The position numbers were made by a program, and so were the translations under genes. This document shows, piece after piece, positions 2,262-55,058 of a stretch of DNA of 64,000 bases. The first letter of the stretch is position 1. Every line of letters begins with the position of its first letter. The notes beneath the pieces were generated by a model. It was not told where the DNA came from. It saw only the letters and a program-made list of their open reading frames with translations, and searched no databases. Source of the DNA: Schistocephalus solidus. Lineage: Eukaryota > Platyhelminthes > Cestoda > Diphyllobothriidea > Diphyllobothriidae. The DNA is taken from positions 124,001 to 188,000 of the forward strand of contig WEDG01000242.1 in assembly GCA_017591395.1 (NCBI GenBank), read 5' to 3'.

Positions 2262-2290
2262 GATAAGGCGGAACCGACAAAGACAAGGTA

Positions 2291-2335
2291 GACCGGAATG
2301 GCCATTTCTGGCTTATTAGCCGTCATCAGCCAGTC
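2291..2335 (-). ncRNA. Hammerhead-like core, unit 1
   Basis: Minus strand order: GACTGG, CTGATGA, a stem II (GGCT, loop AATA, AGCC), GAA, the palindrome ATGGCCAT, T, then CCGGTC. GACTGG pairs with CCGGTC (one G-U) as stem I, and cleavage would follow the ATT triplet. The closing pair of stem II is a C-A mismatch, which may weaken activity. Confidence 0.6.
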
Positions 2336-2594
2336 ATACCCAATCCCAAGTGTGGAACACCTGGGATTCAAACCCGCGACCATTTGTATTTGAGTCAAAC
2401 AATCTACATTGAGCCACGGGCTCGTTGCTATGTCGGTTGTGATCGGGAATATGATGATAGTGTGCGGCTCACCAATCTGATTAAGAAACACTTATGTTCC
2501 GTTGTGCCCTGGAGCGCAGACTAGAGCCCTCACAGACGGTCGAATAGCGACGTGTAGAATATTTTGATAATGTGGAACCGACAAAGACAAGGGA

Positions 2595-2639
2595 GACCGG
2601 AATGGCCATTTCTGGTTTATTAGCCGTCATCAGACAGTT
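2595..2639 (-). ncRNA. Hammerhead-like core, unit 2
   Basis: CTGATGA, GAAA and the ATGGCCAT palindrome are kept. The bases before CTGATGA (AACTGT) pair less well with CCGGTC, and stem II has GGCT against AACC, so folding looks poorer than in unit 1. Confidence 0.5.
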
Positions 2640-2898
2640 ATACCCAATCCCAAGAGTGGAACACCTGGGATTCGAACCCGCAACCTTTGGTAATTGAGTC
2701 AAACGCTCTACCATTAAGCCACGGGCTCATTGCTTTGTCGGTTGCGATCAGGAATATGATGATAGTGGCGGCTCACCGATCTGCTTAAGGAACATTTATG
2801 TTCCGTTGTGCCCTGGAACGGAGACTAGAGGCCTCAAAGGCGGTCGCATAGCGACGTGTAGCATATTTCGATAATGTGGAAACGACAAAGACAAGGGA

Positions 2899-2943
2899 GA
2901 CTGGAATGGACATTTCTGGCTAATTAGCCGTCATCAGCCTGTC
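2899..2943 (-). ncRNA. Hammerhead-like core, unit 3
   Basis: CTGATGA and GAAA are intact and stem II keeps GGCT/AGCC. The stem III palindrome is altered (ATGTCCAT) and stem I has one mismatch (GACAGG against CCAGTC). Confidence 0.5.
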
Positions 2944-3203
2944 ATACCCAATCCCAAGTGTGGAACATCTGGGATTCGAATCCACGACCTTTGGTAATTG
3001 AGTCAAACGCTCTACCATTGAGCCACGGGCTCGTTGCTTTGTCGGTTGCGATCGTGAATATGATAATAGTGTGTGGCTCACCGATCTGCTTAAGGGACAT
3101 GTATGTTCCGTTGTGCCCTGGAACGAAGACTAGAGCCCTCACAGGCGGTCGCATAGCGACGTGTAGCATATTTCGATAATGTGGAAACGACAAAGACAAG
3201 GGA

Positions 3204-3248
3204 GACTGGAATGGCCATTTCTGGCTTATTCGTCGTCATCAGCCAGTC
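3204..3248 (-). ncRNA. Hammerhead-like core, unit 4
   Basis: Stem I (GACTGG/CCAGTC), CTGATGA, GAAA and ATGGCCAT are perfect. Stem II reads GACG...AGCC and is disrupted, so this copy is probably inactive. Confidence 0.5.
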
Positions 3249-3508
3249 ATACCCAATCCCAAGTGTGGAACACCTGGGATTCGAACCCGCGACCATTTTT
3301 AAGTGAGTAAAACGCTTTACCATTGAGCCACGGGCTCGTTGCTTTGTCGGTTTCGATTAAGAATATGATGATAGTGTGCGGCTCACCGATCTGCTTAAGG
3401 AACATTTATGTTCCGTTGTGCCCTGGAACGGAGACTAGAGGCCTCAAAGGCGGTCGCATAGCGACGTGTAGCATATTTCGATAATTTGGAAACGACAAAG
3501 ACAAGGGA

Positions 3509-3553
3509 GACTGGAATGGCCATTTCTGGCTTATTCGTCGTCATCAGCCAGTC
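3509..3553 (-). ncRNA. Hammerhead-like core, unit 5
   Basis: Identical core to unit 4, including the same disrupted stem II. Units 4 and 5 therefore probably arose by recent local duplication. Confidence 0.5.
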
Positions 3554-3813
3554 ATACCCAATCTCAAGTGTGGAACACCTGGGATTCGAACCCGCGACCA
3601 TTGTTAAGTGAGTCAAACGCTTTACCATTGAGCCACGGGCTCGTTGCTTTGTCGATTGCGATCAAGAATATGATGATAGTGTGCGGCTCACCGATTTGCT
3701 TAAGGAACACTTATGTTCCGTTGTGCCCTGGAACTCAGATTAGAGCCCTCACAGGCGGTCGTATGGCGACGTGTAGCATATTTCGATAATGTGGAAACGA
3801 CAAAGACAAGGGA

Positions 3814-3858
3814 GACTGGAATGGCCATTTCTGGCTTATTAGCCGTCATCAGCCAGTC
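3814..3858 (-). ncRNA. Hammerhead-like core, unit 6 (best copy of the array)
   Basis: A 45-nt core with perfect 6-bp stem I (GACTGG/CCAGTC), CTGATGA, 4-bp stem II GGCT/AGCC with AATA loop, GAAA, and stem III formed by the self-complementary ATGGCCAT. The triplet before the predicted cut is ATT, which fits NUH. The only departure from the consensus is the C-A apposition closing stem II. Such a short palindromic stem III is known from hammerheads that act as dimers, for example newt satellite 2. Confidence 0.65.
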
Positions 3859-4237
3859 ATACCCTATCCCAAGTGTGGAACATCTGTGATCCGAATCCAT
3901 GACCTTTTGTAATTGAGTCAAGCGCTCTACCATTGAGCCACGGGCTCGTTGCTTTGTCGGTTGCGATCGGGAATATGACGATAGTATGCGACTCACCGAT
4001 CTGCTTAAGGAATATTTATGTTCCGTTGTGCCCTGGAACTCAGACTAAAACCCTCACAGGCGGTCGTATGGCGACGTATAGCATATTTTGATAAGGTGAA
4101 ACCGACAAGGACATAGGAGACCGGAATGGCCATTTCCGACAAAGCAACGAGCCCTTGGCTCAATGGTACAACGTTTGACTCAATTACCAAAGGTCGCAGG
4201 TTTGAATCCCAGGCTTTCCTCTCTTGGGATTTGGTAT

Positions 4238-4282
4238 GACTGGCTGATGACGGCTAATAAATCAAAAATGGCCATTCCGGTT
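4238..4282 (+). ncRNA. Hammerhead-like core, unit 8 (decayed)
   Basis: Plus-strand copy with intact CTGATGA and palindrome, but GAAA is replaced by AAAA and stem II is weakened (GGCT against AATC). Probably inactive. Confidence 0.5.
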
Positions 4283-4541
4283 CCCCTTGTCTTTGTCAGT
4301 TCCATATTATCAAAATATACTACACGTCGCTATGCGACTGCCTGTGAGGGCTCTAGTCTGCGTTCCAGGGCACAACGGAACATAAATGTTCCTTAAGCAG
4401 ATCAGTGAGCCGCACACTATCACCATATTCCCGATCGCAACCGACAAAGCAACGAGCCCGTGGCTCAATGGTAGTGCATTTGGCTCAATTACCAAAGGTC
4501 GCGGGTTTGAATACCAGGTGTTCCCACACTTGGGATTGAAT

Positions 4542-4585
4542 GACTGGCTGATGATTTGCTATTGCCAGAAATGGCCATTCCGGTC
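4542..4585 (+). ncRNA. Hammerhead-like core, unit 9 (decayed)
   Basis: CTGATGA, GAAA, ATGGCCAT and stem I are present. The stem II segment is rewritten and one base shorter, giving a 44-nt core. Confidence 0.45.
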
Positions 4586-4716
4586 TCCCTTGTCTTTGTC
4601 GGTTCCACAAATATGCTACACGTCGCTATGCGACCGCCTGTGAGGGCTCTAGTGTGAGTTCCAGGACACAACGGAACATAAATGTTCCTTAAGCAGATCG
4701 TTGAGCCGCACACTAT

Positions 4717-4738
4717 CTTATATATATATATATATATA
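4717..4738. repeat. (TA)n microsatellite closing the array
   Basis: The short TA run directly follows CACACTATC of the last unit, mirroring the TA tract at the left edge of the array. Confidence 0.9.
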
Positions 4739-4970
4739 GGTAATGGGGCGCTCACCGATCGGTTACAGGACTCACTCGTCCCGTTGTGCCTTGGGGCTAA
4801 CTCTCAAGCCCCGCCAGCAGCCGTAAGGCAGCTTAGTACATAGGCAGAATAACATAACCGACAAAGACAAGGGAGACTGGAATGGCCATTCCTGGCTTAT
4901 TAGCCGTCATCAGCCAGCCATACCCAAACCCAGGCGCTGCGGCGCTCGAGCCTCGAACTCGCCTCGGAAA
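4739..4970 (-). mobile_element. Ribozyme-type SINE, dispersed subfamily copy
   Basis: On the minus strand the hammerhead-like core at 4875-4919 is followed by GACAAAGACAAGGG-type sequence in complement, then GGCTGCTGGCGGGGCTTGAG and CACTCACCGATCG-type end blocks. The body differs from the 305-bp array units but shares the core, and related copies lie at 13.6, 14.0, 18.5, 49.3 and 63.8 kb. Noncoding. Confidence 0.7.
4875..4919 (-). ncRNA. Hammerhead-like core in dispersed SINE
   Basis: CTGATGA, stem II GGCT/AGCC and the ATTCCAGTC cut region are kept. GAAA is changed to GGAA and stem I has one change (GGCTGG against CCAGTC, allowing a G-U-type end). Confidence 0.5.
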
Positions 4971-5118
4971 TAATTTCTGAAATTATTAAGTGCAGGACAT
5001 GGAGTCAGTTGTTTCGGACATGATGTTTTAGGGTCAGACCCGAAATTTAAATGAGCATTTTGGTCGAAGACATTCAACCATTGTGGAATATCCACGTAAT
5101 GCCCATTCTACAAACAAA
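4971..5118 (-). repeat. Retrozyme body relic
   Basis: The reverse complement matches 11155-11308 almost base for base, from TGTTTGTAGAATGGGC to AATTTCAGAAATTATTTC. That segment is the body of the ribozyme-bounded unit at 11.1-11.4 kb. This copy has lost both ribozyme ends. Confidence 0.85.
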
Positions 5119-5173
5119 GTATTATTACAAGTAGTATATATATATATTGGATGGAGTATACCGACGAGAACTG

Positions 5174-6790: not shown

Positions 6791-6925
6791 CAGCGGGTTC
6801 AAACCTTGAGTGGGACACTACCTGGGATTGGGTATGGCTAACTGATGACAGCTATTAAACCAATAATGGCCATTCCAGTCTCCGTTGTCTTTGTCAGTTA
6901 TGTCATTCTGCCTATTATATACGTA
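6791..6925 (+). mobile_element. Ribozyme-type SINE fragment
   Basis: GGGTTCAAACC (box B-like) is followed by GGGTATGGCTAA, CTGATGA, ATGGCCATTCCAGTC and a CTTTGTC end. GAAA of the core reads AATA and stem II is disrupted, so this is a decayed ribozyme copy. Confidence 0.65.
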
Positions 6926-10570: not shown

Positions 10571-11061
<491 letters not shown>

Positions 11062-11476
11062 GCAGAAACCGGCGAAACACGTGTCTGGGCTTTTAGCTAG
11101 TACCTATGTCGGAAGTACGGTATAACGTCTTTGCCATATAAGATTCATACTACTTGTTTGTAGAATGGGCATTACGTGGTTATTCCACAGTGGTTGATTG
11201 TCTTCGACCCAAATGTTCATTGAAATTTCGGGTCTGACCCTTAAAAGTCATGTCCGAAGCACCTGACTCCATGTCCTGCACTTAATAATTTCAGAAATTA
11301 TTTCCCCGATTATTCTCTGGAGTCCATATACCAGAAACCGCACAGAGAACGCTGGGGGACCCACTGAGGAGCCGAACCCCTCGTTGCTGTGTCACGCAGC
11401 AGCAGAAACATCGGTGAAACACGTGTCTGGGCTTTTAGCTAGTACCTATGTCGGAAGTACGGTATAACGTCTTTGT

Positions 11477-11480
<4 letters not shown>
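11062..11480 (+). mobile_element. Retrozyme-like unit bounded by hammerhead ribozymes
   Basis: The segment GCGAAACACGTGTCTGGGC...GTACGGTATAACGTCTTTG occurs twice (11072-11145 and 11415-11480). The predicted self-cleavage points, after C11085 and C11427, are 342 bp apart. The left copy keeps only the 3' half of the ribozyme because a TA tract replaces its 5' part; the right copy is a full type I hammerhead. The 342-bp body (11086-11427) is noncoding. Its middle recurs inverted at 4971-5118. A noncoding body between two type I hammerheads in direct orientation is the layout described for animal retrozymes, which are thought to form small circular RNAs and spread using other elements' enzymes. 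The last about 50 bp begin a second unit that is cut off by another TA tract. Confidence 0.85.
11351..11439 (+). ncRNA. Type I hammerhead ribozyme (complete)
   Basis: Core: CTGAGGA (11364-11370, fits CUGANGA), stem II GCCGA/TCGGT with an extended inner hairpin (GCTG/CAGC), GAAA (11416-11419), and a palindromic stem III ACACGTGT ending in the preferred GTC triplet at 11425-11427. Stem I pairs TGGGC and TTTTAGC after the cut with GCTGGGGG and ACCCA before the core, about 12 pairs with one bulged A and several G-U pairs. All invariant core positions are present. A zero-loop palindromic stem III suggests action as a dimer or in concatemers. Confidence 0.85.
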
Positions 11481-11509
<29 letters not shown>

Positions 11510-11529
11510 GATATATATATATATATATG
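11478..11529. repeat. (TA)n tracts after the retrozyme unit
   Basis: Two TA runs (about 11478-11502 and 11511-11528) are separated by a short unrelated spacer. Confidence 0.9.
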
Positions 11530-11612
11530 ACAGTGTGCGGCTCACCGATCTGCTTCAGGAGCATGTATGTTCCGTTGTGCCTGGAGCTCAAACTAGTGCC
11601 CTCGCAAGCCCT
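11530..11612 (-). repeat. Fragment of a 305-bp ribozyme SINE unit
   Basis: GTGTGCGGCTCACCGATCTG, then GGAGCATGTATGTTCCGTTG and a CCTGGAGC block, match the body of the units at 2.3-4.7 kb. The tRNA head and ribozyme are missing. Confidence 0.7.
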
Positions 11613-12435
11613 CGGCATCCCAAAAACTTTAATTAAATTAAGTTGAAGTTCTTTGGGACCAAAATAATTTTATTGTTTAAATTTTCGAATCTGTTACCCC
11701 AGTTCGTCTTCAGACAAATGGGAATGTCTTAAACAATACCTAACACAAGATTCTATATTTGACTAAAGTTTAAGCCAAAAGATGTCCAGAGTTTTAATTT
11801 ATCCGGTCGATAGTTGCTGTTTTCACTTCCACTTACCTTGAGAAATATGTAATTGGCATCTAAATGGATATGCCTGTTAATGCATGCCTCGTCTGAGTGC
11901 AGTAATAGGAATTTTGCGGCCCTTCCTAGTTGGGCAGGGCCACAAATTTCTGGAGGCAAACTGATAGTGTCTGTTTAACCCTGGCTAATCTGCTGTCGTT
12001 TTCTTGAAGTGGAATCGCAGACTCCAAACAACACACGAGCTCAGGGAGTGGCAGATTATCGTAAAATGATTTATAATGAAACTTATCCAAGTGCAGGATG
12101 CTTCGGTTGTTAAGAAACTCATCGGGTAGTAGAGATGACAATAAGTCGCCCGTATTCTAGCGATGTTTTCTTTTAAACACCGAGTTCTCCTCATTAGCAT
12201 ACAATTGCAATGGTCTGTCAGAGTGCAATTCAATACACTGGTGAACTGAGTCCTAAAACCTTGTCGCTGATGGCCGAAATTAAAATGTTACTGGTCAATA
12301 TATATTTTCAGTAAATTTTCAGACCAGCACCGTTGTTAATCAACTAACCAAATACGGAAATAAGCTACCTTATAAAGTTTTCAGAAATAATGGCATCTCT
12401 TAGTTTCTGTCGTTATCCGTAACATTTATTTACGT
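11613..12435. other. No sure gene; possible exon on the minus strand
   Basis: On the minus strand a stop-free frame (about 11960-11837) encodes PPEICGPAQLGRAAKFLL and HIHLDANYIFLK, ending exactly at AAG/GTAAGT, a textbook splice donor. A second frame just upstream (12130-11938) encodes LLPDEFLNNRSILHL and similar, but in a different phase. I do not recognise the protein, and neither boundary has a clear pyrimidine tract, so this stays a weak candidate. Confidence 0.3.
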
Positions 12436-12518
12436 AGCCTCGTAGCTCAGTTGGCTAGAGCGTTGGCTGTACTAAAGCCTTCCCCTTGCTGGCGTGGGTT
12501 CGAATCCCACCAAGACCG
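12436..12518 (+). repeat. tRNA-like sequence, copy 1 (tRNA-derived element)
   Basis: Contains box A TAGCTCAGTTGG and box B GGTTCGAATCC in tRNA spacing, with a T arm GTGGG/CCCAC and a D arm GCTC/GAGC. The acceptor stem is damaged (AGCCTCG against CAAGACC). An anticodon loop GTACTAA can be drawn, but the arm has only four pairs and the identity is unclear. Copy 2 lies 304 bp downstream with a shared 3' flank, so a SINE or tRNA-pseudogene repeat fits better than a working tRNA gene. Confidence 0.6.
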
Positions 12519-12739
12519 CCGAGTTTTTCACAAGTGGGTCAAAGGAATTATTCAAATCTGCCAAAATCTTCTACTAATTAATTGTGCCTGGTAGTCATCT
12601 GGTGGATTCTAGATTGATTGCTTAGGAAATCCTGCTTGGGCAGTCAGCTTGCTGTATCAGAATTGGTGGATTCCATACGTTGCAGTAGGCTGGGCGGGTA
12701 ACTTGACCCAAGTGTGATTAAACTCACGGCTCCCGGTGG

Positions 12740-12822
12740 GGCCTCATAGCTCATTTGGCTAGAGCGTTGGTTGTACTAAAGCCTTCCCCTTGCTGGCGTG
12801 GGTTCGAATCCCACCGAGGCCG
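12740..12822 (+). tRNA. tRNA-like sequence, copy 2 (possibly intact; identity uncertain)
   Basis: The acceptor GGCCTCA pairs with CGAGGCC (six pairs). The D arm (GCTC/GAGC), T arm (GTGGG-TTCGAAT-CCCAC) and box B are perfect. The anticodon arm is weak (GGTT/AGCC) with loop GTACTAA, and the variable region TTCCCCTTGCTGGC is long, as in class II tRNAs. The anticodon would read ACT if the loop is drawn with T33. The first 30 bases after the tRNA are shared with copy 1, which suggests a tRNA-derived SINE. Confidence 0.4.
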
Positions 12823-13582
12823 CCGAGATTTTCACAAGTGGGTCAAAGGAATTATCACTTTCTGTTTACTTTTTACGGAATCTATTCTTGAAGATGTTAC
12901 AAGTGTGCGATAAGTCTTTTAAAAAGTATATAAAAATTGTCCCTTTTTGGTTTGAAAATAGAACTCCGCGCCAATTAATCCACAAAAATGCTGGCATACT
13001 CAATCACAAAACTGTAGAGTCCACTTCACTGGGGTCGTGCTTTGCCGTTTTCTGTGATGTGGTTCAGTTACCGTGTCGTCTCAAAGAGTGCCGGGGTAAG
13101 TGCTGTTCCAATACCATAAGCAAAGGCAACTCTATCCATCCGACCGTTGGTTCTTATGACCCCAGATCAGTTTTAACTTCAAAATTTCCGCATTCTCATT
13201 CAACAACTCTGCGGAGCTTGACTTCTAAAGGTGACCGAAAGGGTCACAGAGCCTGTTGCGTGCAATCTAATGCACTTACAGGGATGTGTACTTTAGTAGT
13301 CGCAAAAGAAGTCTGCTTAATAAAGAACGAAATAAAGCTGAAGCAGTAATTTTCCGTTTGTGGATAGGGGCGTCGTACAAGCCCTATAGTCCAGTTGGGT
13401 TGGCATTTTCGTAGTTCTACATTACGCATTAAGCCACGAGTATGAGGCCTGGAAAGCAACAGCTGGGTCAGTTATCAAAGTACCCCTCCCACCTAAAAGT
13501 TAATCCACTTGAGTTAGAGCGTCAGTCTGGCTGTTGCCCTGTTGATAACGATAATTTCGAGCATAACAGCATTCGTTGATCA
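12823..13582 (+). other. No gene recognised; 183-codon open frame without known domain
   Basis: The frame at 12798-13349 is the longest outside the LINEs. It starts inside the tRNA-like copy at a GTG, shows no domain, and its length is near what chance gives in 64 kb. Annotated as noncoding pending evidence. Confidence 0.4.
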
Positions 13583-13645
13583 ACGCCCACCGATCGCTAA
13601 CGGAATTCACCCGTCATGATCTGCCTTGACGCTCACTCTCGAGCA

Positions 13646-13673
13646 CCACCAGCAGCTGCACAGCTGCTGGTGG
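13646..13673. repeat. 13-bp perfect inverted repeat with 2-nt spacer
   Basis: CCACCAGCAGCTG, CA, CAGCTGCTGGTGG lies within the SINE body, where other copies read GCCAGCAGCC and do not form this palindrome. Confidence 0.9.
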
Positions 13674-13712
13674 CAGAATAGGTGGATGAATATTGCCTAC
13701 ACAGGCAAAGGA

Positions 13713-13757
13713 GACTGGAATGGCCATTTCTGGCTTATTAGCCGTCCTCAGCCAGCC
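13713..13757 (-). ncRNA. Hammerhead-like core in dispersed SINE
   Basis: CTGAGGA (still CUGANGA), stem II GGCT/AGCC, GAAA, ATGGCCAT and the cut region ATT/CCAGTC are present. Stem I is GGCTGG against CCAGTC. Confidence 0.55.
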
Positions 13758-13850
13758 ACACCCAACCCCAGGTGATGCACCGCCCGAGGATCGAACCTGT
13801 GACCCGTTGATCAGTATTCCAATACTCTAACCCGCTTATTCTACTACCAG

Positions 13851-14125
13851 CCACTGTCCGGCTGCTGTTGGGGTTCGAGAGTGAACCTCAAGGCAGAGCG
13901 GAACGAGTGAGTTCCGTTGGCGATCGGTTAGATTTTATCAACGAATGCAGTCAATATTCTCGATGTAAACTGCAAGACAACGAGCCCGTGGCTCAATGGT
14001 TAGAGCATTGGAGCTCTGATCAATGGTGCACCACCTGTAGTTGAGTATAGCTGCCTGACGACGACTAATAATCCAGAAATGGAAATTCCAGGCTGCCTTC
14101 TCTTTGTCGGCAATATTAACCTGTG
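13851..14125 (+). mobile_element. Ribozyme-type SINE, plus copy of the inverted pair
   Basis: GGCTGCTGTTGGGGTTCGAG, AAGGCAGAGCGGAACGAG, AGCCCGTGGCTCAATGG (box A) and a decayed core (CTGACGA, stem II GACT, GAAATGG) precede a CTTTGTCGG end. Box B is lost by a small deletion. Together with the preceding copy it forms a head-to-head inverted arrangement. Confidence 0.7.
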
Positions 14126-16510: not shown

Positions 16511-19500
16511 CACCAGACAGGTAACAGCCCGAGTGCACTATTAGGCACGCGGTCGGAAGACATAATCTGCATTTGGCGTCCGATGCAAATAGGATGCAGC
16601 CCTACAGTCTAAGTCTAGTGCTATTTCTTTTTCCATCTGACCATCTTCGATTTATGTCCGGTAGCCCGGCGCTTATTGTTAATCGATGCAGGAGAAGAAT
16701 AACTTACTGGCTGAGATGCAAATTTGTTTTCGCTTCGCGGACTGCGATGCACTGGTTAGAGAAATGCTTTCGAACTTTCATTTACATGCTTATTAGCCCA
16801 TTCTTCTATCAAGGCGTATTATATGGGTATCGCTATGCAAGCTTTCTTTGGCAATTTATCTAGATACGTTTCAGTACATTCAAGGAAGCGAACCTAGGCT
16901 ACTCGTAATTATTTTCCAACAGAATCCGCTCTGGATCAATAGAGTGCGGCATTTGGCTAGCTTGAAGTTTATGGCTACTCCTTAGTAGTAATACTCAAGC
17001 GATTAAAGTCCCAGGCCATTTAGTACGCGTTAACGAATTTTCATCAGCCTAATGAAATCGAACAACGCCTTTCAAGCCATAGGATGATGTAGAACGATTA
17101 CCATGATTAGCAATCTTTGCTTGTGTATGATTCAACCCTCAAGCACGAACATTGCAAAAGCAACAAACGGCGAACAAAAGAAAAGGAATTCATTTAGCTG
17201 TACTTAGCCAATTTTTTTTCATTTAGGCATGAATAGAAGCAGAAGGTAGTGTATTTATCACTCATTTAGCCGCACTAGGAAAGTAAAAGGAAATATGGGA
17301 GCTTTTGGACCGTCCATGCACACATCTCGAGAAAATATGAAACAATAGAGGTCTGCTGTGCAATTTTCTGGTTTCGTATTAACACATCAACCAGCACGCC
17401 GTAAGCGGTTGAGAGCTAATTGCGACGTGGGAATGACGTTCACCATTTGGGTTTTATTGCAGGGCGCAATGCGGGGACTCCGTTATGAGTATAGCTTCCA
17501 TCTTTTCCCAAAGCCCACAGCCTTTTCATTCCTACTTTGCCGATACTTCTACCAGTCAGTACAGCGAACAGCTGGATAGATGCATTGACAAAGACTTAAT
17601 GCGTCGTCGGTCATAGTTACAAAATTGTCACATAATTTGACCGTCTATGAATACTTTCTCTAACAGCTAAGGGAATTTTAGTTTGACCACAAATGGTAAT
17701 TATTTTAGTTACTTTTAATTGGAGAACCTGTATGTATTGGGTGTAAGGCCGACTTACGGTAAACATAAAACCGAAACAGTAGGCAAACCAATTGACTTTT
17801 AAGCAGTATCTTTCGATATGTTATTTAGGGTGAGACCACCTGCTTCTCGTCTTATTAAATCGGGGAGTGATGGCGTCAGGCACTTTGTGCGAGGAAACTG
17901 CCATCAGTCCATAAACTGTAAGGTTACCCTATACTATACGAGGGCTTGTCTCACAGGTCCGATTTTGGAGGTCACAAGGTCAGTCCTGGAATAGGTCATT
18001 AATGTCGGACAACAGACGCTATATCCGCTATCGTTGTCTTCGAACCAGCAAAGAGCCTTCCATAATTTTCCTCTGATGTAGTTAGTCTTCTATCTGCAGC
18101 CAACTTTTGTCTTTCGTGTAGTCTTGTCCAGAAGTGTAAAACTTATTTACGTTCTTGGACCGTCTGAACGGTCGGACCTGCCGTTTGTTCTTGACAGGCG
18201 GCATGTTAATGATGTCACCAACACGTTTCGGTATCTTTCATTCTGTACTTAACTTGGCGCGAACGGACTTACGTACAAAGATGAAATAGGTATTTTTAAT
18301 GAGTTGAATTTATACTGGGCGAGTCAAATAGATAAATAGTTCGTTGTCATTGTAATTGCCTTATCTGTGACACACGAACCTATGATCAGTGATGTCGTAC
18401 ACCAAGCCGGCTCTCATCAATAAGTGTTCAAGAGTGAAATTATTGGTAAACGGGCGCTCCCCGATCGCTTACGGGATTCACTTATCCAGTTGTGCCTTGG
18501 GGCTCACTCTCGAGCTCCGCATAGTGGCTAGTATTAGGGGCAGAAGAGTGAGCTTCGAGGCGGAACGGGACGCGGGTATCCCGTCACCGATCGGTGAGCG
18601 CCTATTCACTAATGTTAATATTCTCGATCGAAATCAGCAAGACAACAAGCCCGTGACTCAGTGATTAGAGCTTTAGACTTCTACTCAACAGGTTGTGAGT
18701 ACGAGCAACACCTGAGGTTGGATCTGGCTGGCTGATAACGGTGAATAAGGCAGAAGTAGTCAGTTCAGTCTCCTTGTCTTTCCGGTAACGTTCTTCAGCA
18801 AAATTATATTTAACTTCTCCAGAAACGCCTATGGAAAGTAAAATGTTTTAGAACCTTTTCCCTGCTGTCCTGGCTTGCCATTATCTCGTCGAAAGCGCTG
18901 ACGGGTTTCATTAATTATTCTTCTCAGACGTGGATCTCATTTTCGGTATTCATTACCGATTTTGTTCGGTAGAGTAGAGGCTTTTATAATGGTCAGTCTT
19001 AGTAGCCTCGCACGGTTCATTTTTCAGGTGACTATTCTGAGGAAAGATCTTCTTTATTCCAGTTCCACTGAACCGTTTTTGTTGCGAAACTCGATGTTTG
19101 TTCATGATACTGACATTTACCTTTTCTTGAACTGACATCTTGAACGAAAGTAATAAGCGGAACTTCGTGGGGGTTACGTTCCTAGATCACCGTGCATTTT
19201 GAAAATGTGCGATTTTTCGACGGACAACTAACAACTACCACTAAATACCTGTCTTAATTGGGAAGACGCTATATTTTTTCTAAGAGCACTTCAACTTTAT
19301 TTAGAAGTTGATGTTTCAATGTGTATTATTTTGAAAATTTTACAGGTAGAAGTAAAAATATATAGTACTGGATTGTAAAGTACATCAGTAAGGAACTGTA
19401 CATACTGTGAGTGCATGTTCTTCTATTGTCAGCTACCTCGTGTCGGCCCGCATCTTTGCTAAGACGCTACAGTCTCATGAGCGCATTTTGCAAGACATAG

Positions 19501-27282: not shown

Positions 27283-30200
27283 AGCTGAGACGGAGCACCA
27301 TAAAGCTTCCGTCAACGCTTTGCATCGCATGGCCAGTTCATCCTTGCTGCCAACTAGGAAGAGCTTCATCGGTTACGCTCATCTGGTGCAACTTGCTAGT
27401 CGAGGCGGTTAATTTTGTGTGGCCGCAGCGTGCTCAGAAATGAAAGCTCTCTGCTCAACCGCCTAACGGATCAATCACCACTTGCGCTGGAGACGGAGCA
27501 CCATAAAGTCGGGTCAACGCTTTGCATCGCATGGCCAGTTCATCCTTTTGCTGCCAACTAGGAAGAGCTTCATCAGTTACCCTCATCTGGTTTAACTTGC
27601 TAGTCGAGGCGGTTACCCAGGTGTGGCCGCAGCGTGCTCAGAAATGAAAGCTTCTCTGCCCGCCAACCGCCTAACGGATCAGTACCACTTTGCGCTGAGA
27701 CGGAGCACCATAAAGCTTCAAGTCAACGCTTTGCATCGCATGGCCAGTTCATCCTTGCTGCCAACTAGGAAGAGCTTCATCAGTTACCCTCATCTGGTTT
27801 AACTTGCTAGTCGAGGCGGTTACCCAGGTGTATGGCCGCAGCGTGCTCGAAATGGCTTCTCTGCCCGCCAACCGCCTAACGGATCAATCACCACTTGCGC
27901 TGAGACGGAGCACCATAAAGCTTCCGTCAACGCTTTGCATCGCATGGCCAGTTCATCCTTGCTGCCAACTAGGAAGAGCTTCATCAGTTACCCTCATCTG
28001 GTTTAACGCTAGTCGAGGCGGTTACGCAGGTGTGGCCGCAGCGTGCTCAGAAATGAAAGCTCTCTGCCCGCCAACCGCCTAACGGATCAATCACCACTTG
28101 CGCTGAGACGGAGCACCATAAAGCTTCCGTCAATGCTTTTGCATCGCATGGCCAGTTCATCCTTGCTGCCAACTAGGAAGAGCTTCATCGGTTACCCTCA
28201 TCTGGTTTAACTTGCTAGTCGATGCGGTTACCCAGGTGTGGCCGCAGCGTGCTCAGAAATGAAAGCTCTGCCGCCAACCGCCTAACGGATCAATCACCAC
28301 TTGCGCTGAGACGGAGCACCATAAAGCTTCCGTCAATGCTTTTGCATCGCATGGCCAGTTCATCCCTTGCTGCCAACTAGGGAAGAGCTTCATCAGTTAC
28401 CCTCATCTGGTTTAACTTGCTAGTCGAGGCGGTTACCCAGGTGTGGCCGCAGCGTGCTCAGAAATGAAAGCTCTCTGCCCGCCAACCGCCTAACGGATCA
28501 ATCACCACTTGCGCTGAGACGGAGCACCATAAAGCTTCCGTCAATGCTTTCGCATCGCATGGCCCAGTTCATCCTTGCTGCCAACTAGGGAAGAGCTTCA
28601 TCGGTTACCCTCATCTGGTTTAACTTGCTAGTCGAGGCGGTTGCAGGTGTGGCCGCAGCGTGCTCAGAAATGAAAGCTCTGCCCGCCAACCGCCTAACGG
28701 ATCAATCACCACTTGCGCTGAGACGGAGCACCATAAAAGCTTCCGTCAATCGCTTTGCATCCGCATGGCCAGTTCATCCTTGCTGCCAACTAGGAAGAGC
28801 TTCATCGGTTACCCTCATCTGGTTTAACTTGCTAGTCGAGGGCGGTTACCCAGGTGTGGCCGCAGCGTGCTCAGAAATGAAAGCTCTCTGCCCGCCAACC
28901 GCCTAACGGATCAATCACCACTTGCGCTGAGACGGAGCACCATAAAGCTTCCGTCAACGCTTTGCATCGCATGGCCAGTTCATCCTTGCTGCCAGCTAGG
29001 AAGAGCTTCATCAGTTACCCTCATCTGGTTTAACTTGCTAGTCGAGGCGGTTACCCGGGTGTGGCCGCAGCGTGCTCCAGAAATGAAAGCTCTCTGCCCG
29101 CCAACCGCCTAACGGATCAATCACCACTTGCGCTGAGACGGAGCACCATAAAGCTTCCGTCAATGCTTTTGCATCGCATGGCCAGTTCATCCTTGCTGCC
29201 AACTAGGAAGAGCTTCATCGGTTACCCTCATCTGGTTTAACTTGCTAGTCGAGGCGGTTACCCAGGTGTGGCCGCTAGCGTGCTCAAGTGAAAGTCTCTG
29301 CCCGCCAACCGCCTAACGGATCAATCACCACTTGCGCTGAGACGGAGCACCATAAAGCTTCCGTCAATGCTTTTTGCATCGCATGGCCAGTTCATCCTTG
29401 CTGCCAACTAGGAAGAGCTTCATCAGTTACCCTCATCTGGTTTTAACTTGCTAGTCGAGGCGGTTACCCGGGTGTGGCCGCAGCGTGCTCAGAAATGAAA
29501 GCTCTCTGCCCGCCAACCGCCTAACGGATCAATCACCACTTGCGCTGAGACGGAGCACCATAAAGCTTCCGTCAATGCTTTTGCATCGCATGGCCAGTTC
29601 ATCCTTGCTGCCAACTAGGAAGAGCTTCATCGGTTACCCTCATCTGGTTTTAACTTGCTGAGTCGAGGCGGTTACCCAGGTGTGGCCGCAGCGTGCTCCA
29701 GAAATGAAAGCTCTCTGCCCGCCAACCGCCTAACGGATCAATCACCACTTGCGCTGAGGACGGAGCACCATAAAGCTTCCGTCAATGCTTTTGCATCGCA
29801 TGGCCAGTTCATCCTTGCTGCCAACTAGGAAGAGCTTCATCGAGTTACCCTCATCTGGTTTAACTTGCTAGTCGAGGCGGTTACCCAGGTGTGTACAGCG
29901 ATGCTCAGAAATGAAAGCTCTCTGCCCGCCAACCGCCTAACGGATCAATCACCACTTGCGCTGAGACGGAGCACCATAAAAGCTTCCGTCAACGCTTTGC
30001 ATCGCATGGCCAGCTCATCCTTGCTGCCAACTAGGAAGAGCTTCATCGGTTACGCTCATCTGGTTTAACTTGCTAGTCGAGGCGGTTACCCAGGTGTGGC
30101 CGCAGCGTGCTCAGAAATGAAAGCTCTCTGCCCGCCAACCGCCTAACGGATCAATCACCACTTGCGCTGAGACGGAGCACCATAAAGCTTCCGTCAATGC

Positions 30201-32428
30201 TTTGCATCGCATGGCCAGTTCATCCTTGCTGCCAACTAGGGAAGAGCTTCATCGGTTACCCTCATCTGGTTTAACTTGCTAGTCGAGGCGGTTACCCAGG
30301 TGTGGCCGCAGCGTGCTCAGAAATGAAAGCTCTCTGCCCGCCAACCGCCTAACGGATCAATCACCACTTGCGCTGAGACGGAGCACCATAAAGCTTCCGT
30401 CAATGCTTTTGCATCGCATGGCCAGTTCATCCTTGCTGCCAACTAGGAAGAGCTTCATCAGTTACCCTCATCTGGTTTTAACTTGCTAGTCGAGGCGGTT
30501 ACCCAGGTGTGGCCGCAGCGTGCTCAGAAATGAAAGCTCTCTGCCCGCCAACCGCCTAACGGATCAATCACCACTTGCGCTGAGACGGAGCACCATAAAG
30601 CTTCCGTCAATGCTTTGCATCGCATGGCCAGTTCATCCTTGCTGCCAACTAGGAAGAGCTTCATCGGTTACCCTCATCTGGTTTAACTTGCTAGTCGAGG
30701 CGGTTACCCAGGTGTGGCCGCAGCGTGCTCAGAAATGAAAGCTCTCTGCCCGCCAACCGCCTAACGGATCAATCACCACTTGCGCTGAGACGGAGCACCA
30801 TAAAGCTTCCGTCAATGCTTTGCATCGCATGGCCAGTTCATCCTTGCTGCCAACTAGGAAGAGCTTCATCGGTTACCCTCATCTGGTTTAACTTGCTAGT
30901 CGAGGCGGTTACCCAGGTGTGGCCGCAGCGTGCTCAGAAATGAAAGCTCTCTGCCCGCCAACCGCCTAACGGATCAATCACCACTTGCGCTGAGACGGAG
31001 CACCATAAAAGCTTCCGTCAATGCTTTGCATCGCATGGCCAGTTCATCCTTGCTGCCAACTAGGAAGAGCTTCATCGGTTACCCTCATCTGGTTTAACTT
31101 GCTAGTCGAGGCGGTTACCCAGGTGTGGCCGCAGCGTGCTCAGAAATGAAAGCTCTCTGCCCGCCAACCGCCTAACGGATCAATCACCACTTGCGCTGAG
31201 ACGGAGCACCATAAAGCTTCCGTCAATGCTTTGCATCGCATGGCCAGTTCATCCTTGCTGCCAACTAGGAAGAGCTTCATCGGTTACCCTCATCTGGTTT
31301 AACTTGCTAGTCGAGGCGGTTACCCAGGTGTGGCCGCAGCGTGCTCAGAAATGAAAGCTCTCTGCCCGCCAACCGCCTAACGGATCAATCACCACTTGCG
31401 CTGAGACGGAGCACCATAAAAGCTTCCGTCAATGCTTTTGCATCGCATGGCCAGTTCATCCTTGCTGCCAACTAGGAAGAGCTTCATCGGTTACCCTCAT
31501 CTGGTTTTAACTTGCTAGTCGAGGCGGTTACCCAGGTGTGGCCGCAGCGTGCTCAGAAATGAAAGCTCTCTGCCCGCCGACCGCCTAACGGATCAATCAC
31601 CACTTGCGCTGAGACGGAGCACCATAAAGCTTCCGTCAATGCTTTGCATCGCATGGCCAGTTCATCCTTGCTGCCAACTAGGAAGAGCTTCATCAGTTAC
31701 CCTCATCTGGTTTAACTTGCTAGTCGAGGCGGTTACCCAGGTGTGGCCGCAGCGTGCTCAGAAATGAAAGCTCTCTGCCCGCCAACCGCCTAACGGATCA
31801 ATCACCACTTGCGCTGAGACGGAGCACCATAAAGCTTCCGTCAATGCTTTGCATCGCATGGCCAGTTCATCCTTGCTGCCAACTAGGAAGAGCTTCATCG
31901 GTTACCCCTCATCTGGTTTAACTTGCTAGTCGAGGCGGTTACCCAGGTGTGGCCGCAGCGTGCTCAGAAATGAAAGCTCTCTGCCCGCCAACCGCCTAAC
32001 GGATCAATCACCACTTGCGCTGAGACGGAGCACCATAAAGCTTCCGTCAATGCTTTGCATCGCATGGCCAGTTCATCCTTGCTGCCAACTAGGAAGAGCT
32101 TCATCAGTTACCCTCATCTGGTTTAACTTGCTAGTCGAGGCGGTTACCCAGGTGTGGCCGCAGCATGCTCAGAAATGAATGCTCTCTGCCCGCCAACCGC
32201 CTAACGGATCAATCACCACTTGCGCTGAGACGGAGCACAATAAAGCTTCCGTCAACGCTTTGCATCGCATGGCCAGTTCATCCTTGCTGCCAACTAGGAA
32301 GAGCTTCATCAGTTACCCTCATCTGGTTTAACTTGCTAGTCGAGGCGGTTACCCAGGTGTGGCCGCAGCGTGCTCAGAAATGAAAGCTCTCTGCCCGCCA
32401 ACCGCCTAACGGATCAATCACCACTTGC
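27283..32428. repeat. 205-bp satellite array, 25 units
   Basis: The block GGAGCACCATAAAG recurs 25 times at about 205-bp steps (27.29 to 32.23 kb). The array begins at GCTGAGACGG and ends at CCACTTGC, which are adjacent in the unit, so it holds a whole number of units. Units at 30.5-32.4 kb are nearly identical; those at 27.3-29.9 kb differ mostly by single-base insertions or deletions in short homopolymers. Each unit contains an 8-bp inverted repeat (AGGCGGTT...AACCGCCT) about 45 nt apart. A 72-codon frame recurs per unit only because units repeat: 205 is not a multiple of three and its start is GTG. No ribozyme, tRNA box or similarity to other repeats here was seen. Confidence 0.97.
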
Positions 32429-36859: not shown

Positions 36860-37574
36860 AATGGAGGACGGCGCTAGTCGCTCGGGAACTGGCGCGCTAC
36901 AAGGTGGGCATTGCTGCTCTCAGCGAGACCCGATTCTCTGAGCAGGGTCAGCTGGAGGAGGCGGGTGCCGGCTACACCTTCTTCTGGAGCGTCCGGCCAA
37001 AGGCAGAGCAACGCGACGCTGGTGTCACCTTTACCATCCACAGGGTATCAATAATCGCCTGATGAGCCTCCGCCTGCCTCTTAGGGGAGACAAGTTAGCC
37101 ACCAGCATCAGCGCCTACGCTCCTCCAATGACAAGCTCTCATGCGGCGAAGGACAAATTCTACGAGGACCTGCATGCCCTGCTGGCCACTGTGCTGAACG
37201 AGGACAAGTTAATTGTCCTTGGTGACTTCAACGCCCGCGTCGGGACGGACCACGCTGCCTGGCAGGGAGTGCTGGGTACCCACGGTCTCGGTAGCTGTAA
37301 CGATAACGGCCTCCTTCTTCTGCGAGCGTGTGCGGAACACCGTCTCCTGCTGACCAACACCTTCTTCCGCCTTCCGATGTGGGAGGAGGCAACGTCGATG
37401 CACCCTGGGTCACGGCGCTGGCAGCTGCTGAACTATGTTCTCGTCAGGAGGCGAGATCGACAGGACGTGCTGGTAACCAAGGCGATCCGCGATGCCGATG
37501 ATTGGACAGATCACCGCCTCGTCATCTCCCAGATGAGGCTCCAACTGCAACCCCGACGAAGGCCCCAAGGCTAG
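36860..37574 (+). pseudogene. LINE endonuclease domain (copy 1)
   Basis: Belongs to the exonuclease/endonuclease/phosphatase family that nicks target DNA for target-primed reverse transcription. Visible: VARELARYKVGIAALSETR with the catalytic Glu motif (SETR), [19 protein letters not shown] (Asp/Asn motif) and WTDHRLVI (Asp-His motif). About 80 bp are deleted near 37045 relative to copy 2, which breaks the frame before 37062, and a TAG follows PRRRPQG at about 37572. The N-terminal WNVRT segment is also cut by a deletion near 36840. Confidence 0.85.
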
Positions 37575-37639
37575 TGGCCACCAGGTAAGTTAAATACTTT
37601 TTTTAACTTTGCCTGCTCACTGTTTTGATTTCAGCAACC

Positions 37640-38716
37640 AAATAACCGAGAAACTGGAGAACCAGATGCCGGCGCCTTTTACAGCAACGGCTGCGGGAGA
37701 TGCAGGATGCCTGGATGATCCGAAAGGCTGAGGAAATCCAGTGGTATGCGGACCGCAATGAAATGAAAAACGTTTTAAAAGCCATCAAGGCCGTCTAAGG
37801 CCCGTGTATCAAGGGGACCGCACCGCTGCTCAGCTCTGATGGCACAACACTGGTGACAGAGAAATCGCAATTGCTGAACTGCTGGGCCGAGCACTTCAGA
37901 AGTGTCCCTACTTGCTCATCAGCCATCTCCGATGCTGCCATTGACCGGCTCCCTCAAGTGGACACGAACAATGACCTGGATCTGCCGCCTTCCCTACCAG
38001 AAACCATCCGGGCCCTGCAACAGATTTCCAGCAATAAAGCACCGGGATCCGACGCAATCCTACCCGAAGTCTACAAGCACGGTGGGCCCCGGCTGATGGC
38101 AGAACTCACAACACTCTTACAGGAGATGTGGCGCCAAGGACAAGTTTCTCTAGATTTCAAAGATCCGACCATCGTCCATCTCTACAAGTGGAAGGGGAAC
38201 CGACAACTCTGTGATAATCACAGAGGCATCTCGTTGCTCAACATCGCCAGGAAGATCTTCGCCCGTATCCTTCTCAATCGCCTGAATGGTCACCTAGAGC
38301 AGGGCCTGCTCCCGGAAAGCCAATGTGGCTTCCGCCGACACCGCGGAACAACCGACATGATCTCTGCCGCCCGCCAGCCACAAGAGAAGTGCCAGGAGAT
38401 GCGAACTCACCTATACACTACTTTCCTGGATCTGACTAAAGCCTTTGACACGGTGAATCGTGACGGACTGTGGAAAGTCATGCAGAAATTTGGCTGTCCT
38501 AAGCGGTTCACGCACATGGTGCGTCAGTTTATGACGGGATGTTGGCGCGCGTCACTGACAACGGGACGGTATCTGAAGCATTCGCAGTGGCCAACGGAGT
38601 GAAGCCGGGCTGCGTATTGGCCCCCACCCTGTTCAGTCTCATGTTCTCTGCTATGCTGATGGACGCCTACCGTGATGAGCAGCCTAGGATCTACATCACC
38701 TACAGAACTGACGGGC
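37640..38716 (+). pseudogene. LINE reverse transcriptase, truncated (copy 1)
   Basis: The open part (37853-38602) carries RT fingers and palm segments: [52 protein letters not shown] and motif [15 protein letters not shown] with its catalytic Asp. A frameshift near 38530 precedes motif B ([19 protein letters not shown]). Motif C (FADD) is absent because of the 1.6-kb deletion, so no polymerase can be made. Confidence 0.88.
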
Positions 38717-39340
38717 ACCAACCTCCACGACAACCTGCGGTAAACCACCGGAGGCTAAGCCACATCAGCGCATAGCATCTACACTAATACATAGACAACA
38801 CCCTCACAATCATCATAATGTACCTGATAAAATCACGGTTTCCTAGAAACCGTGGCTTGGAAGGCTGCCTATCTGACGCTTACACCAGACCACACCGTCG
38901 GCCCAGTGTATGTGCTGTGTGTGTCGAGTGGCTGACCAGTGGACTGGGAGTCAGACGGCGATGGCTCCTCCATATCTCCCGAGTAAGTAAATCCTGGTGC
39001 TTGCATTATGGGGGCCAGGTCATGCTGTGACGCGCGAAGACGGGTACGCCGACTCATCAGCCAATGTGCCCACTCCCACATCAAACCACTGACTGGCTTG
39101 GATGGTGGTCTGATTGTGGGGGTTGGGGAGAGAGTGAGGTGGACAGCTCAGCGCATTTTCCTCACTATAAAGAATCTGACGCGCTTAAAGCTATCATGGT
39201 GCGCTAAAAGCCGTGGCTTGGAAGGTTGCCAACTAATGGGAAACTCGGACCGCGTAGTCAGCCCAATGTGTGTTTTGTATGGAGTGGCTGACTGACGGAC
39301 TGAGAGTCAGGCTGCAATGGCTCCTTTGTAAAGTGGCTTT
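38717..39340 (+). other. LINE 3' untranslated region (copy 1)
   Basis: Collinear with 58010-58620: a GGTTTCCTAGAAACCGTGGC hairpin-like start, GTGTGTCGAGTGGCTGACCA, then the related second module GTGTTTTGTATGGAGTGGCT. It ends near 39340, earlier than copy 2, so the terminal 300 bp are lost or replaced. Confidence 0.85.
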
Positions 39341-49304: not shown

Positions 49305-49645
49305 AGAATGAGTCCCAAGGCAGAACGGGGTGAGTGAGTTCCGTTAGCGATCGTTGAGCGCCTACTTACCATTGTTAATATTGCGGATCGACTCTGGCAT
49401 GACAACGAACCAGTGGCTCAATGGGTAGTGTTGGATATCTCTTCAGCAGGTTGCGGCTTGGAGCCTCGGGTGGGGCACACCTGGCTGATGACGACTAATG
49501 AGCCAGAAACGGCATTCCAATCTCCCTTGAATATGTCGGCATTTCTAATCTGCCTCTACAGCTAGCCGTTGTGTGGCTGTTGGTGGGACCCGATAGTGAG
49601 CCCCAAGGCAGAACGGGAGAAGTGATTTCCGTTAACGATCCATTA
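49305..49645 (+). mobile_element. Ribozyme-type SINE, one copy plus a partial second
   Basis: GAGAATGAGTCCCAAGGCAG, GATCGTTGAGCGCC, GAACCAGTGGCTCAATGG (box A), GGCTGATGACGACTAATGAG and GAAACGGCATTCCAATCTCC form one copy with a damaged stem II. A second body fragment (GCTGTTGGTGGGACCCGATA...GTTAACGATCC) follows at 49565-49645. Confidence 0.7.
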
Positions 49646-52190: not shown

Positions 52191-52714
52191 AAGCTGGCCT
52201 CATTCAGCCTCAATGTCTGCTCACCACAGCTGTCAAATTGTAGTCATTGGCAGCGTTATGGTTATGAAACGTGTTCCGTCCCTCTGCGGAAAACCGACCC
52301 TTAAGTCGGAGAAAAATCAAAAAGCTGGCCTCATTCAGCCTCAATGTCTGCTCACCACAGCTGTCACATTGTAGTCATTGGCAGCGTTATGGTTATGAAA
52401 CGTGTTCCGTCCCTCTGCGGAAAACCGACCCTTAAGTCGGAGAAAAATCAAAAAGCTGGCCTCATTCAGCCTCAATGTCTGCTCACCACAGCTGTCACAT
52501 TGTAGTCATTGGCAGCGTTATGGTTATGAAACGTGTTCCGTCCCTCTGCGGAAAACCGACCCTTAAGTCGGAGAAAAATCAAAAAGCTGGCCTCATTCAG
52601 CCTCAATGTCTGCTCACCACAGCTGTCACATTGTAGTCATTGGCAGCGTTATGGTTATGAAACGTGTTCCGTCCCTATGAGGAAAAGAGACCCTTAAGTC
52701 GGAGAAAAATTAAA
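52191..52714 (+). repeat. 131-bp tandem repeat, four units
   Basis: AAGCTGGCCTCATTCAGC begins at 52191, 52322, 52453 and 52584, exactly 131 bp apart. Units are almost identical. The first three contain the hairpin CCGAC-CCTTAA-GTCGG, and in the fourth the left arm is mutated (AAGAGACCC). The array starts 3 bp after the right arm of the inverted-repeat element. Noncoding. Confidence 0.97.
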
Positions 52715-53736
52715 ATTCCTCGAAAACATAGGAGCAGTTGGTGAGCATACGCGTGCTTTCGTCAGAGCAATGGCGTACAACTTAATTCATGCCCTCAATA
52801 ATGATCGACTTCATATAAGTTAATCGTACTGCCGGCTATTGACCTCAAAATTCCTATTTAAACAAAGGAAAACAATTAATGAAGCATATTACCAAAGCAT
52901 TATGTCCCATTTTTGTAAACTCTAAGTCCTTACTATATTGGGGAGGGCTTTTAATCAGATTATCTACCAGGTACCCGCACACTGCTCTAAAGGCCTACGC
53001 AGACGGGTGTTAGCAACATCTGCGGCAGTAGCGACTCGGCTAGCGAACCCAGCGTTCACACAGTCTGTCTTCCGTGGCCGACTCCAGCTGGAAATCGCAC
53101 GCCACCCCAACACCTTGGTACCAGTCACACGAATTCCACGTGTTTAACGTACAGACAGCCCACCCATAACATCTTCCCTCTCTCCCTCCCTCCCTCCCTC
53201 CTCCGCTGTCAGCTCCACTCCGACTCCGTCATGCAGGCGATCTGTGAACGAGTCGTGCGACTCACCAAGTCCCCTCGCTCTCCCGACACCGATATAACCC
53301 ACGAGGGGGTGAGGGGGATCGAAATTGGTGGAAGAGGATCGAGGAGGGATGTAAAATGACTAATACGGTTGTAGGGGAATGAGAGATAAAAGGATAAATT
53401 GTGGGAAAAGGTGACAAGACGATGAAGGGAGCCAAGCCCAGGAACAGCGCACGTTGATAACCTATGGAAGATCAGTCCTTCATGTAAATATCACTTATTT
53501 TGCATTCTACTTTGTTTTATTCCAAGAATAATCATCGACAAGTCGACAAGTTCCTGATGTAGTCCATGACTCACCGATTTGAAAACAGCATAACTCTCCA
53601 TTTAGCCGGCTCCTTTACCTAGTATCTGACTTGAGAATTTTGATAGCTGCGTGCCAAATTTGCATATCATGAGTATTCTATGACCACTGTAGGGTGTAGG
53701 GGTACTAGTTAGGGGTAGCATCACATAGTTGGGCAT
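52715..53736. other. No gene recognised; short CCCT run
   Basis: A (CCCT)n tract lies near 53177-53206. The purine-rich segment 53.33-53.45 kb has no clear period. No domain seen. Confidence 0.4.
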
Positions 53737-54137: not shown

Positions 54138-55058
54138 ATGTGCCCTAAACAAATGCTGGTTATCACGTCTTCTGCAGCCGACCGTGGCTCGCAGATCGAA
54201 AAATACGCGGTCGTAAAACTCAAACAAACAACAATACCCCCCGTCCCCATCCCCCCTCGCCATACTCTCCAGGCTGCTCGGGTGAGTACACCCACACTAG
54301 CAGCCTGGAATGTACGTACGCTTTTAGACAATCCTAGGAGCAACCGGCTGGAACGGAGGATTATGCTAGTCGCTCGGGAACTGGCACGCTACAAGGTGGA
54401 CATTGCTGCTCTCAGTGAGACCCGACTCTCTGAGCAGGGTCAGCTGGAGGAGGCGGGTGCCGGTTACATCTTCTTCTGGAGCGGCCGGCCAAAGGCAGAG
54501 TGACGCGACGCTGGTGTTGCCTTTGCCATCCGGAACGACATCGTGGGACGTCTGCCCTGTCTGCCGCAGGGTATCAATGATCGCCTGAGGAGCCTCCGCC
54601 TGCCTCTTCGGGGAGACCATTTCGCTACCATCATAAGTGCCTACGCTCCCGCAATGACGAGCTCTGACGCGGCAAAGGACAAATTCTACGAGGACCTGCA
54701 CGCCCTGATGGTGACTCTGCTGAAAGAGGACAAGTTAATTGTCCTTGGTGACATCAACACCCGCGTCGGAAGATACCACGCTGTCTGGCAGGGAGTGCTC
54801 GGTCCCCACGGTCTTGGTAGCTGTAACGATAACGGCCTCCTTCTTCTGCAAACGTTTGTGGAACACCGTCTCCTGCTGACCAACACCTTCCGCCTTCCGA
54901 CGCGGGAGAAGGCCACGTGGATGCACCCTCGGTCGCGGCGCTGGCATCTGCTGGACTATGTTCTCGTCCGGAGACGAGATCGACAGGACGTGCGGGTAAC
55001 CAAGGCGATCCGCGATGCCGATGGTTGGACAGATCACCGCCTCGTCATCCCCAGATGA
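54138..55058 (+). pseudogene. LINE endonuclease domain (copy 2)
   Basis: Target-nicking endonuclease for target-primed reverse transcription. In one frame it shows LAAWNVRTLLD (Asn motif), ALSETRLSEQG (Glu), [25 protein letters not shown] (normally GDFN) and WTDHRLVI (Asp-His). An in-frame TGA at 54501-54503 replaces the CAA seen in copy 1. A one-base loss near 55046 (CATCCCCAG against CATCTCCCAG) ends the frame at 55058. The protein start is taken at the first ATG of the frame (54138); an earlier start is possible. Confidence 0.88.

Follow-up and report, generated by a model that had tools for sequence, protein, structure and literature searches.

A putative non-LTR retrozyme with a type I hammerhead motif and a neighbouring hammerhead-like SINE family in the tapeworm Schistocephalus solidus

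The locus raises the question of whether a short repeat with a hammerhead motif, located in the genome of a tapeworm, belongs to the self-cleaving retroelements known from other animals. The window analysed here is a stretch of 64,000 nt from Schistocephalus solidus. We read the element at 11060-11482 as a non-LTR retrozyme of the metazoan type, to which we assign a probability of roughly 0.7: a repeat whose read-through transcript would cut itself, give rise to a 342-nt circle and be reverse-copied into TA-rich DNA.

A 342-nt repeat with one complete hammerhead motif

The whole element (11060..11482, + strand; direct repeat and self-alignment) comprises 423 nt, or 1.24 units; it begins at unit position 317, passes through a complete unit and stops at position 55. 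Its direct repeats, 11070-11140 and 11412-11482, are 97% identical at a spacing of 342 nt, and the left and right copies agree at 95% over 81 aligned nt in the self-alignment. The unit between the two predicted cut sites (11086..11427, + strand) is noncoding: the longest ATG frame on the closed 342-nt circle has 38 aa. With regard to a polypurine tract, which metazoan non-LTR retrozymes do not have, its longest purine run is 6 nt. The RNA shows no unusual overall stability (z = -1.23), and an exact 17-base pattern has 0 matches among viral contigs. With 342 nt and a G+C content of 45.6%, this noncoding unit falls within the 150-450 bp and below the 50% G+C given for animal retrozymes, which are described as repeats with type I motifs (PMC7229834).

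The right-hand part of the element contains a complete type I hammerhead motif (11351..11439, + strand), recovered by descriptors, by folding and by a sub-threshold match to the Rfam model RF00163. The 5' strand of stem I (11351..11363) folds onto 11428-11439 with 12 pairs, four of them G.U, and one bulged A (A11359). It is followed by a sequence match to the core, CUGAGGA (11364..11370), and by stem II together with its insert (11371..11415), where 11371-11375 folds onto 11411-11415 (GCCGA/UCGGU; the first pair is a G.U) and encloses 35 nt with a hairpin of their own. The remaining segment (11416..11427) consists of GAA (11416-11418), the stem III palindrome ACACGUGU (11419-11426) and C17; positions such as 10.1, 11.1 and 17 follow the standard numbering of hammerheads. 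The GUC ends at C11427, after which the cut is predicted, and the stretch GAAACACGTGTC occurs twice, at 11074-11085 and 11416-11427. As a monomer, stem III is limited to two pairs (AC/GU) closed by the loop ACGU. The same sequence, ACACGTGT, is a perfect 8-nt palindrome, which forms two pairs as a hairpin and eight as a duplex; a 16-nt model piece pairs with a second copy of itself at -11.7 kcal/mol but gives no stable hairpin on its own. The preliminary description had named these same parts, and folding and sequence bear it out on each of them: the intact CUGAGGA, GAA and GUC, the 12-pair stem I, the 5-bp stem II with its inner hairpin and the palindromic stem III.

The left-hand site differs. 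Alignment and pairing identify the 3' half of a hammerhead only (11062..11097, + strand), which holds the 3' strand of stem II, GAA, stem III, C11085 and the 3' strand of stem I. The homology of this copy begins at about 11062, inside the hammerhead, and a search for CUGANGA in 10900-11085 found none. The earlier claim of a body between two hammerhead cut sites is hence correct as to the direct repeats 342 nt apart, but C11085 lies in a 3' half, and the element has a single complete ribozyme. With regard to a tandem array in which each unit carries a hammerhead, the locus offers 1.24 units with one complete ribozyme and one 3' half. The 5' half of the right motif can be paired with the left 3' half, resulting in 12 pairs in stem I and four Watson-Crick pairs in stem II; the first stem II pair is a G-C with the left copy and a G.U with the right copy. 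From these modelled pairings, it is possible that one catalytic half would cut at both sites sequentially.

Could the likeness to a hammerhead have arisen by chance in a plain repeat? The Rfam score might be taken that way. RF00163, the type I model, matches 11358-11433 with 18.1 bits against a gathering cut-off of 34, and the hammerhead motif of the 342-nt unit is absent from the whole-window Rfam listing at E up to 10. The covariance-model search suggested earlier therefore has a divided outcome: the score is under the gathering cut-off, but the alignment spans the entire model (1-45), and the core letters fall where expected. The low score is likely caused by the 35-nt insert in stem II. 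Given this score, the absence from the whole-window listing and the two-pair stem III of the monomer, the motif cannot be called near-ideal, as it had been. Other Rfam matches (miRNA, pestivirus, RUF) lie mostly on TA tracts and are all far under their gathering scores.

The descriptors point the other way. A strict hammerhead descriptor has one match when both strands of the window are scored and 0 when 400 first-order Markov windows are scored on a single strand. Since the strict descriptor was tightened after the site at 11351-11439 had been seen, the test with a looser descriptor matters too: it returns four matches in the window, namely the same site and three SINE copies, compared to an average of 0.02 when 100 randomised windows are scored on one strand. 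Neither descriptor places a hammerhead on the minus strand of the 342-nt unit. Both backgrounds speak against a chance motif, as does its position in a repeat whose unit length is typical of retrozymes, and we discard this explanation as highly improbable.

Folding energies bear on how readily the motif would form. For 11349-11442, the forced hammerhead has -30.3 kcal/mol, compared to -33.8 kcal/mol for the free fold (a cost of 3.5 kcal/mol). The minimum-energy fold of the circular unit is without a hammerhead (-89.7 versus -84.0 kcal/mol when forced). The 1.24-unit RNA folds freely at -117.5 kcal/mol, at -109.7 kcal/mol with the right hammerhead forced and at -105.3 kcal/mol with the permuted left cut forced, the latter being costlier than the right; neither hammerhead is therefore the predicted ground state. 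The descriptors and the forced fold nonetheless agree on a type I hammerhead with a complete core, although RF00163 remains below gathering.

Two copies of the unit are present within the window, one of them partial. The partial copy (4966..5125, - strand; blastn and alignment) is inverted, 91.9% identical over 160 aligned nt, and spans unit positions 62-220 only. The recurrence of the body, previously placed at 4971-5118, is thus genuine, but it concerns an inverted fragment from which the ribozyme is absent, and the presumed mobility of the family rests on two copies, one of them partial. These copies also bear on a further explanation, in which the element is a dead satellite or SINE-like remnant that was once active, no longer cuts in this copy and spreads by DNA-level duplication only. 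Such decay would account for the single complete ribozyme, for a first stem II pair that is G.U where the left copy would offer G-C, and for the differences between the left and right copies (95% over the 81 aligned nt). It fits poorly with core bases that are all intact, with a stem I that keeps its 12 pairs, and with a partial copy that sits elsewhere in inverted orientation and with different flanks. We regard a dead remnant as improbable, though it is the foremost competitor of the retrozyme reading.

A SINE origin of the 342-nt unit was considered and rejected, as its best promoter boxes do not exceed chance and it does not resemble the 305-bp unit of the SINE family described below. Scored with the A and B box consensus of pol III promoters, the best B box of the unit has 4 mismatches (3 or fewer are found in 203 of 300 shuffles) and the best A box has 1 (1 or fewer in 121 of 300 shuffles). 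Aligned to the 305-nt unit, its score is equalled or exceeded by 47 of 200 shuffles.

A 305-bp SINE family with a tRNA-type head

A second repeat family in the window consists of 305-bp units. Its main array (2262..4136, - strand; blastn, tandem-repeat and motif model) comprises 6.2 tandem copies with six hammerhead-like motifs, followed by 1.9 further copies in opposite orientation (4136..4717, + strand) with two motifs. The motif at 3804..3864 (- strand; found by the descriptor and a row of motif model R1) is representative, with the sequence GACUGG CUGAUGA ... GAA AUGGCCAU U / CCAGUC and a predicted cut after 3820. A dispersed copy with a CUGAGGA core (13703..13763, - strand), likewise found by the descriptor and a row of the model, has its predicted cut after 13719. 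Dispersed SINE copies are located, for example, at 6820-6915, 13584-14118, 18446-18799, 49463-49640 and 63842-63977.

The consensus motif reads GACUGG-CUGAUGA-C-GGCU-AAUA-AGCC-A-GAA-AUGGCCAU-U-CCAGUC and is of type I with the cut triplet AUU. A C.A at the base of stem II is found in 12 of the 13 aligned copies, and the palindromic 8-nt stem III is kept in 10 of them; three of the 13 pass the loose descriptor (H17 at 2297, 3820 and 13719). Model R1, built from 11 copies, has 14 matches at E < 1e-8, and 11 of these are the rows that went into it; at E up to 1 there are 20. Stem cells are paired in 86.0% of cases, compared to 86.4% in shuffles and at most 56.7% in slid versions, for a structure drawn from the same copies that were scored. 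Among 10 distinct rows, 0 pairs are changed on both sides, so that the SINE motif rests on consensus pairing, on a core kept by most copies and on the palindromic stem III rather than on covariation. The Rfam hammerhead models have no match in the two stretches searched.

Upstream of the motif, the same unit carries a tRNA-type head. In one unit the B box, GGTTCGAATCC, is found with 0 mismatches and the A box with 1 mismatch, the latter alone being within chance; three sub-threshold tRNA matches of 20-22 bits lie just upstream of SINE motifs. The 305-bp SINE is thus a candidate, judged from its sequence, for a second hammerhead family and a flatworm counterpart of the schistosome Sm-alpha.

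Several further repeats and genes were recorded along the window. Two tRNA-Ser-like genes (12436-12520 and 12740-12824) stand in tandem 304 bp apart, with Rfam tRNA scores of 33.7 and 41.5 bits; their anticodon, act, is an ARAGORN call under the bacterial code. An open reading frame at 12780-13349 was rejected as a gene: it has no Pfam match, and the stop-to-stop frame starts inside the tRNA-like stretch. In the array at 27284-32428 a 205-bp unit is repeated about 25 times in tandem (96% matches), and neither the strict nor the looser descriptor finds a hammerhead there; at 52191-52715 a 131-bp unit is repeated four times in tandem (98% matches).

TA tracts and a possible route of insertion

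Both families are bordered by TA tracts. To the left of the 342-nt element, the flank 10958-11059 consists of (CT)n followed by (TA)n, with the (TA)n tract at the 5' edge annotated as 10991..11058. At the 3' edge, 11478..11528 holds two (TA)n tracts split by TTTACCCG, of which the first spans 11478-11503; the right-hand one probably represents the tail of a tRNA-type SINE in antisense orientation, whose 3' end (11529..11620, - strand; blastn to SINE copies) adjoins the element. A target-site duplication is not readable inside these tracts. The SINE array at 2262-4136 is likewise adjoined at its 3' end by a TA tract (2204-2259).

The partial copy of the 342-nt unit combines both features. On its 5' side (copy 5125-4966) it is bounded by a TA tract, roughly at the unit position where the first copy gives way to TA; on its 3' side it is joined directly to a 5'-truncated SINE (4740..4965, - strand) with a TA tail and a hammerhead-like motif at 4865-4925. 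The TA tract that ends this SINE is common to a further antisense SINE. By blastn, no 342-nt sequence is found beyond the truncated SINE, which makes a template jump in one insertion a simple explanation of the fusion at 4740-5125. Such a jump is possible; the alternative is an old SINE insertion with subsequent loss.

All seven TA tracts of at least 12 nt in the window lie no more than 12 nt from a member of either family, compared to 9.5% of random places within 25 nt of either family. The family intervals derive from blastn with four queries, some of which had been delimited by the tracts themselves, and the tracts are clustered, so that the association is weaker than seven independent events would be. 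Together with the fusion, it suggests a common insertion machinery for both families.

As to which enzyme might provide this machinery, the window offers one candidate. Two broken LINE copies (36942-39311 and 54504-58600) with endonuclease and reverse transcriptase matches have 3' regions that are about 91% alike; the second is followed by a C2H2 zinc-finger frame. Among the best 120 of 2086 relatives, the closest to the reverse transcriptase at 37799-38599 are from Schistocephalus, Spirometra and Sparganum, in keeping with a tapeworm genome. A LINE could be the helper of retrozyme and SINE. Penelope-like elements come into question in two ways, as proposed helpers of animal retrozymes (PMC7229834) and as a source of the element itself, which could be the remnant of a pseudo-LTR, since their terminal repeats are described as carrying minimal type I hammerheads in tandem (PMC7761336). 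The motifs of these elements are, however, usually without non-conserved helix III bases according to the same source, whereas the 342-nt motif has eight in stem-loop III. In nine proteins chosen from the 12 stop-to-stop frames of at least 150 aa, the only matches are to the endonuclease, RVT_1 and zinc finger of a LINE, with no Penelope reverse transcriptase or GIY-YIG among these nine. A Penelope-like origin is a weak contender, which we rate somewhat below the dead remnant.

The retrozyme reading starts from what the sequence directly displays: the unit with its motif, a half-motif on the left, TA tracts along both edges and a second copy that is partial. As no convincing pol III box was found, the unit would be transcribed by read-through. 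For this transcript, self-cleavage after C11427 is predicted. The palindromic stem III, which has two pairs in the hairpin but eight in the duplex, points to a double hammerhead formed by two RNAs, so that dimeric cutting is predicted. The single 5' half may also pair with the left 3' half and cut at C11085, which would release a whole unit. The freed 342-nt RNA would then be closed into a circle by a host RNA ligase and copied by a borrowed reverse transcriptase, presumably primed where a UAUA-rich point (at about unit position 53-60) anneals to a TA tract. Copying that runs more than once round the circle would leave 1.24 units. The adjoining SINEs may use the same machinery.

A wider version of this scheme is tentative, and we think it rather doubtful as a whole. 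It holds that two ribozyme retroelements of unrelated sequence coexist in this tapeworm, one a 342-nt retrozyme that has no promoter and the other a 305-nt SINE with a tRNA promoter, that both act as double hammerheads with an 8-nt palindromic stem III and insert at TA tracts by means of one reverse transcriptase, and that the fusion at 4740-5125 marks a jump of this enzyme from SINE RNA to retrozyme RNA in the course of a single insertion. If true, the class of machinery behind animal retrozymes would be LINE priming on TA tracts and not the proposed Penelope-like elements. A genome in which a retrozyme and a hammerhead SINE share TA edges and are fused makes the question of the moving enzyme testable by sequence alone.

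Comparison with known hammerhead repeats

Platyhelminths are named among the phyla with retrozyme-like repeats (PMC7229834). In the open-access literature on hammerheads with cestode, tapeworm or Echinococcus, as far as its accessible text extends, we found no tapeworm hammerhead described.

The closest counterparts of the 342-nt unit are the metazoan non-LTR retrozymes of coral, mussel and axolotl (Cervera and de la Pena 2020, PMC7229834), with which it has in common the type I hammerhead, a noncoding unit of a few hundred bp in partial tandem, a G+C content below 50% and a two-pair stem III; a two-pair stem III with a tetraloop is called similar to invertebrate hammerheads in that paper. The layout of animal retrozymes, as previously attributed to the element, thus applies to unit size, G+C content, lack of reading frames, partial tandem and type I motif with short stem III; a complete ribozyme is present once. 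Unlike the published retrozymes, as they are described there, the tapeworm element has a 35-nt stem II insert, only 1.24 units and TA-tract edges.

Palindromic stem/loop III has been reported for repeat-type hammerheads (PMC3088659), and in hammerheads of this type, those of amphibians included, stem III is described as short and often palindromic and the dimers as more active (PMC7229834, PMC3088659). Newt and axolotl type I repeats resemble the 342-nt unit in their weak stem III, with a palindromic loop in one axolotl family, and axolotl hammerheads are reported to cut weakly as monomers and better as dimers (PMC7229834). The resemblance is one of description. Over 120,000 motifs are present in the axolotl genome (PMC7229834), compared to two unit copies in the window. 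A U.U mismatch is reported for the helix II base in one axolotl family (PMC7229834); since the axolotl ribozymes cut, the C.A at the base of stem II in the tapeworm SINE may be tolerated.

Among flatworms, Sm-alpha of Schistosoma mansoni is a SINE derived from tRNA-Gln with an active type I hammerhead (PMC2770079, PMC8490949). The 305-bp family is likened to Sm-alpha and Sj-alpha by layout, both having a tRNA-type head and a type I motif, and by unit length (305 bp versus 335 bp for W36.2/SMalpha; PMC2770079, PMC8490949). The tapeworm SINE motif differs from Sm-alpha in the C.A at the base of stem II and the cut triplet AUU; the 342-nt unit differs from it in having no tRNA head. In S. haematobium, hammerhead-like RNAs are reported to overlap SINE/tRNA repeats (PMC5993326). 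By description, the 342-nt unit also resembles the W-elements of S. mansoni, satellite-like repeats whose minimal type I hammerheads have a very short stem III (PMC8490949). These are satellites of the W chromosome with some autosomal copies, and three of the five candidates tested cut in vitro (PMC8490949). Animal non-LTR retrozymes as such are already known; the new part would be a tapeworm member and its pairing with a ribozyme-bearing SINE.
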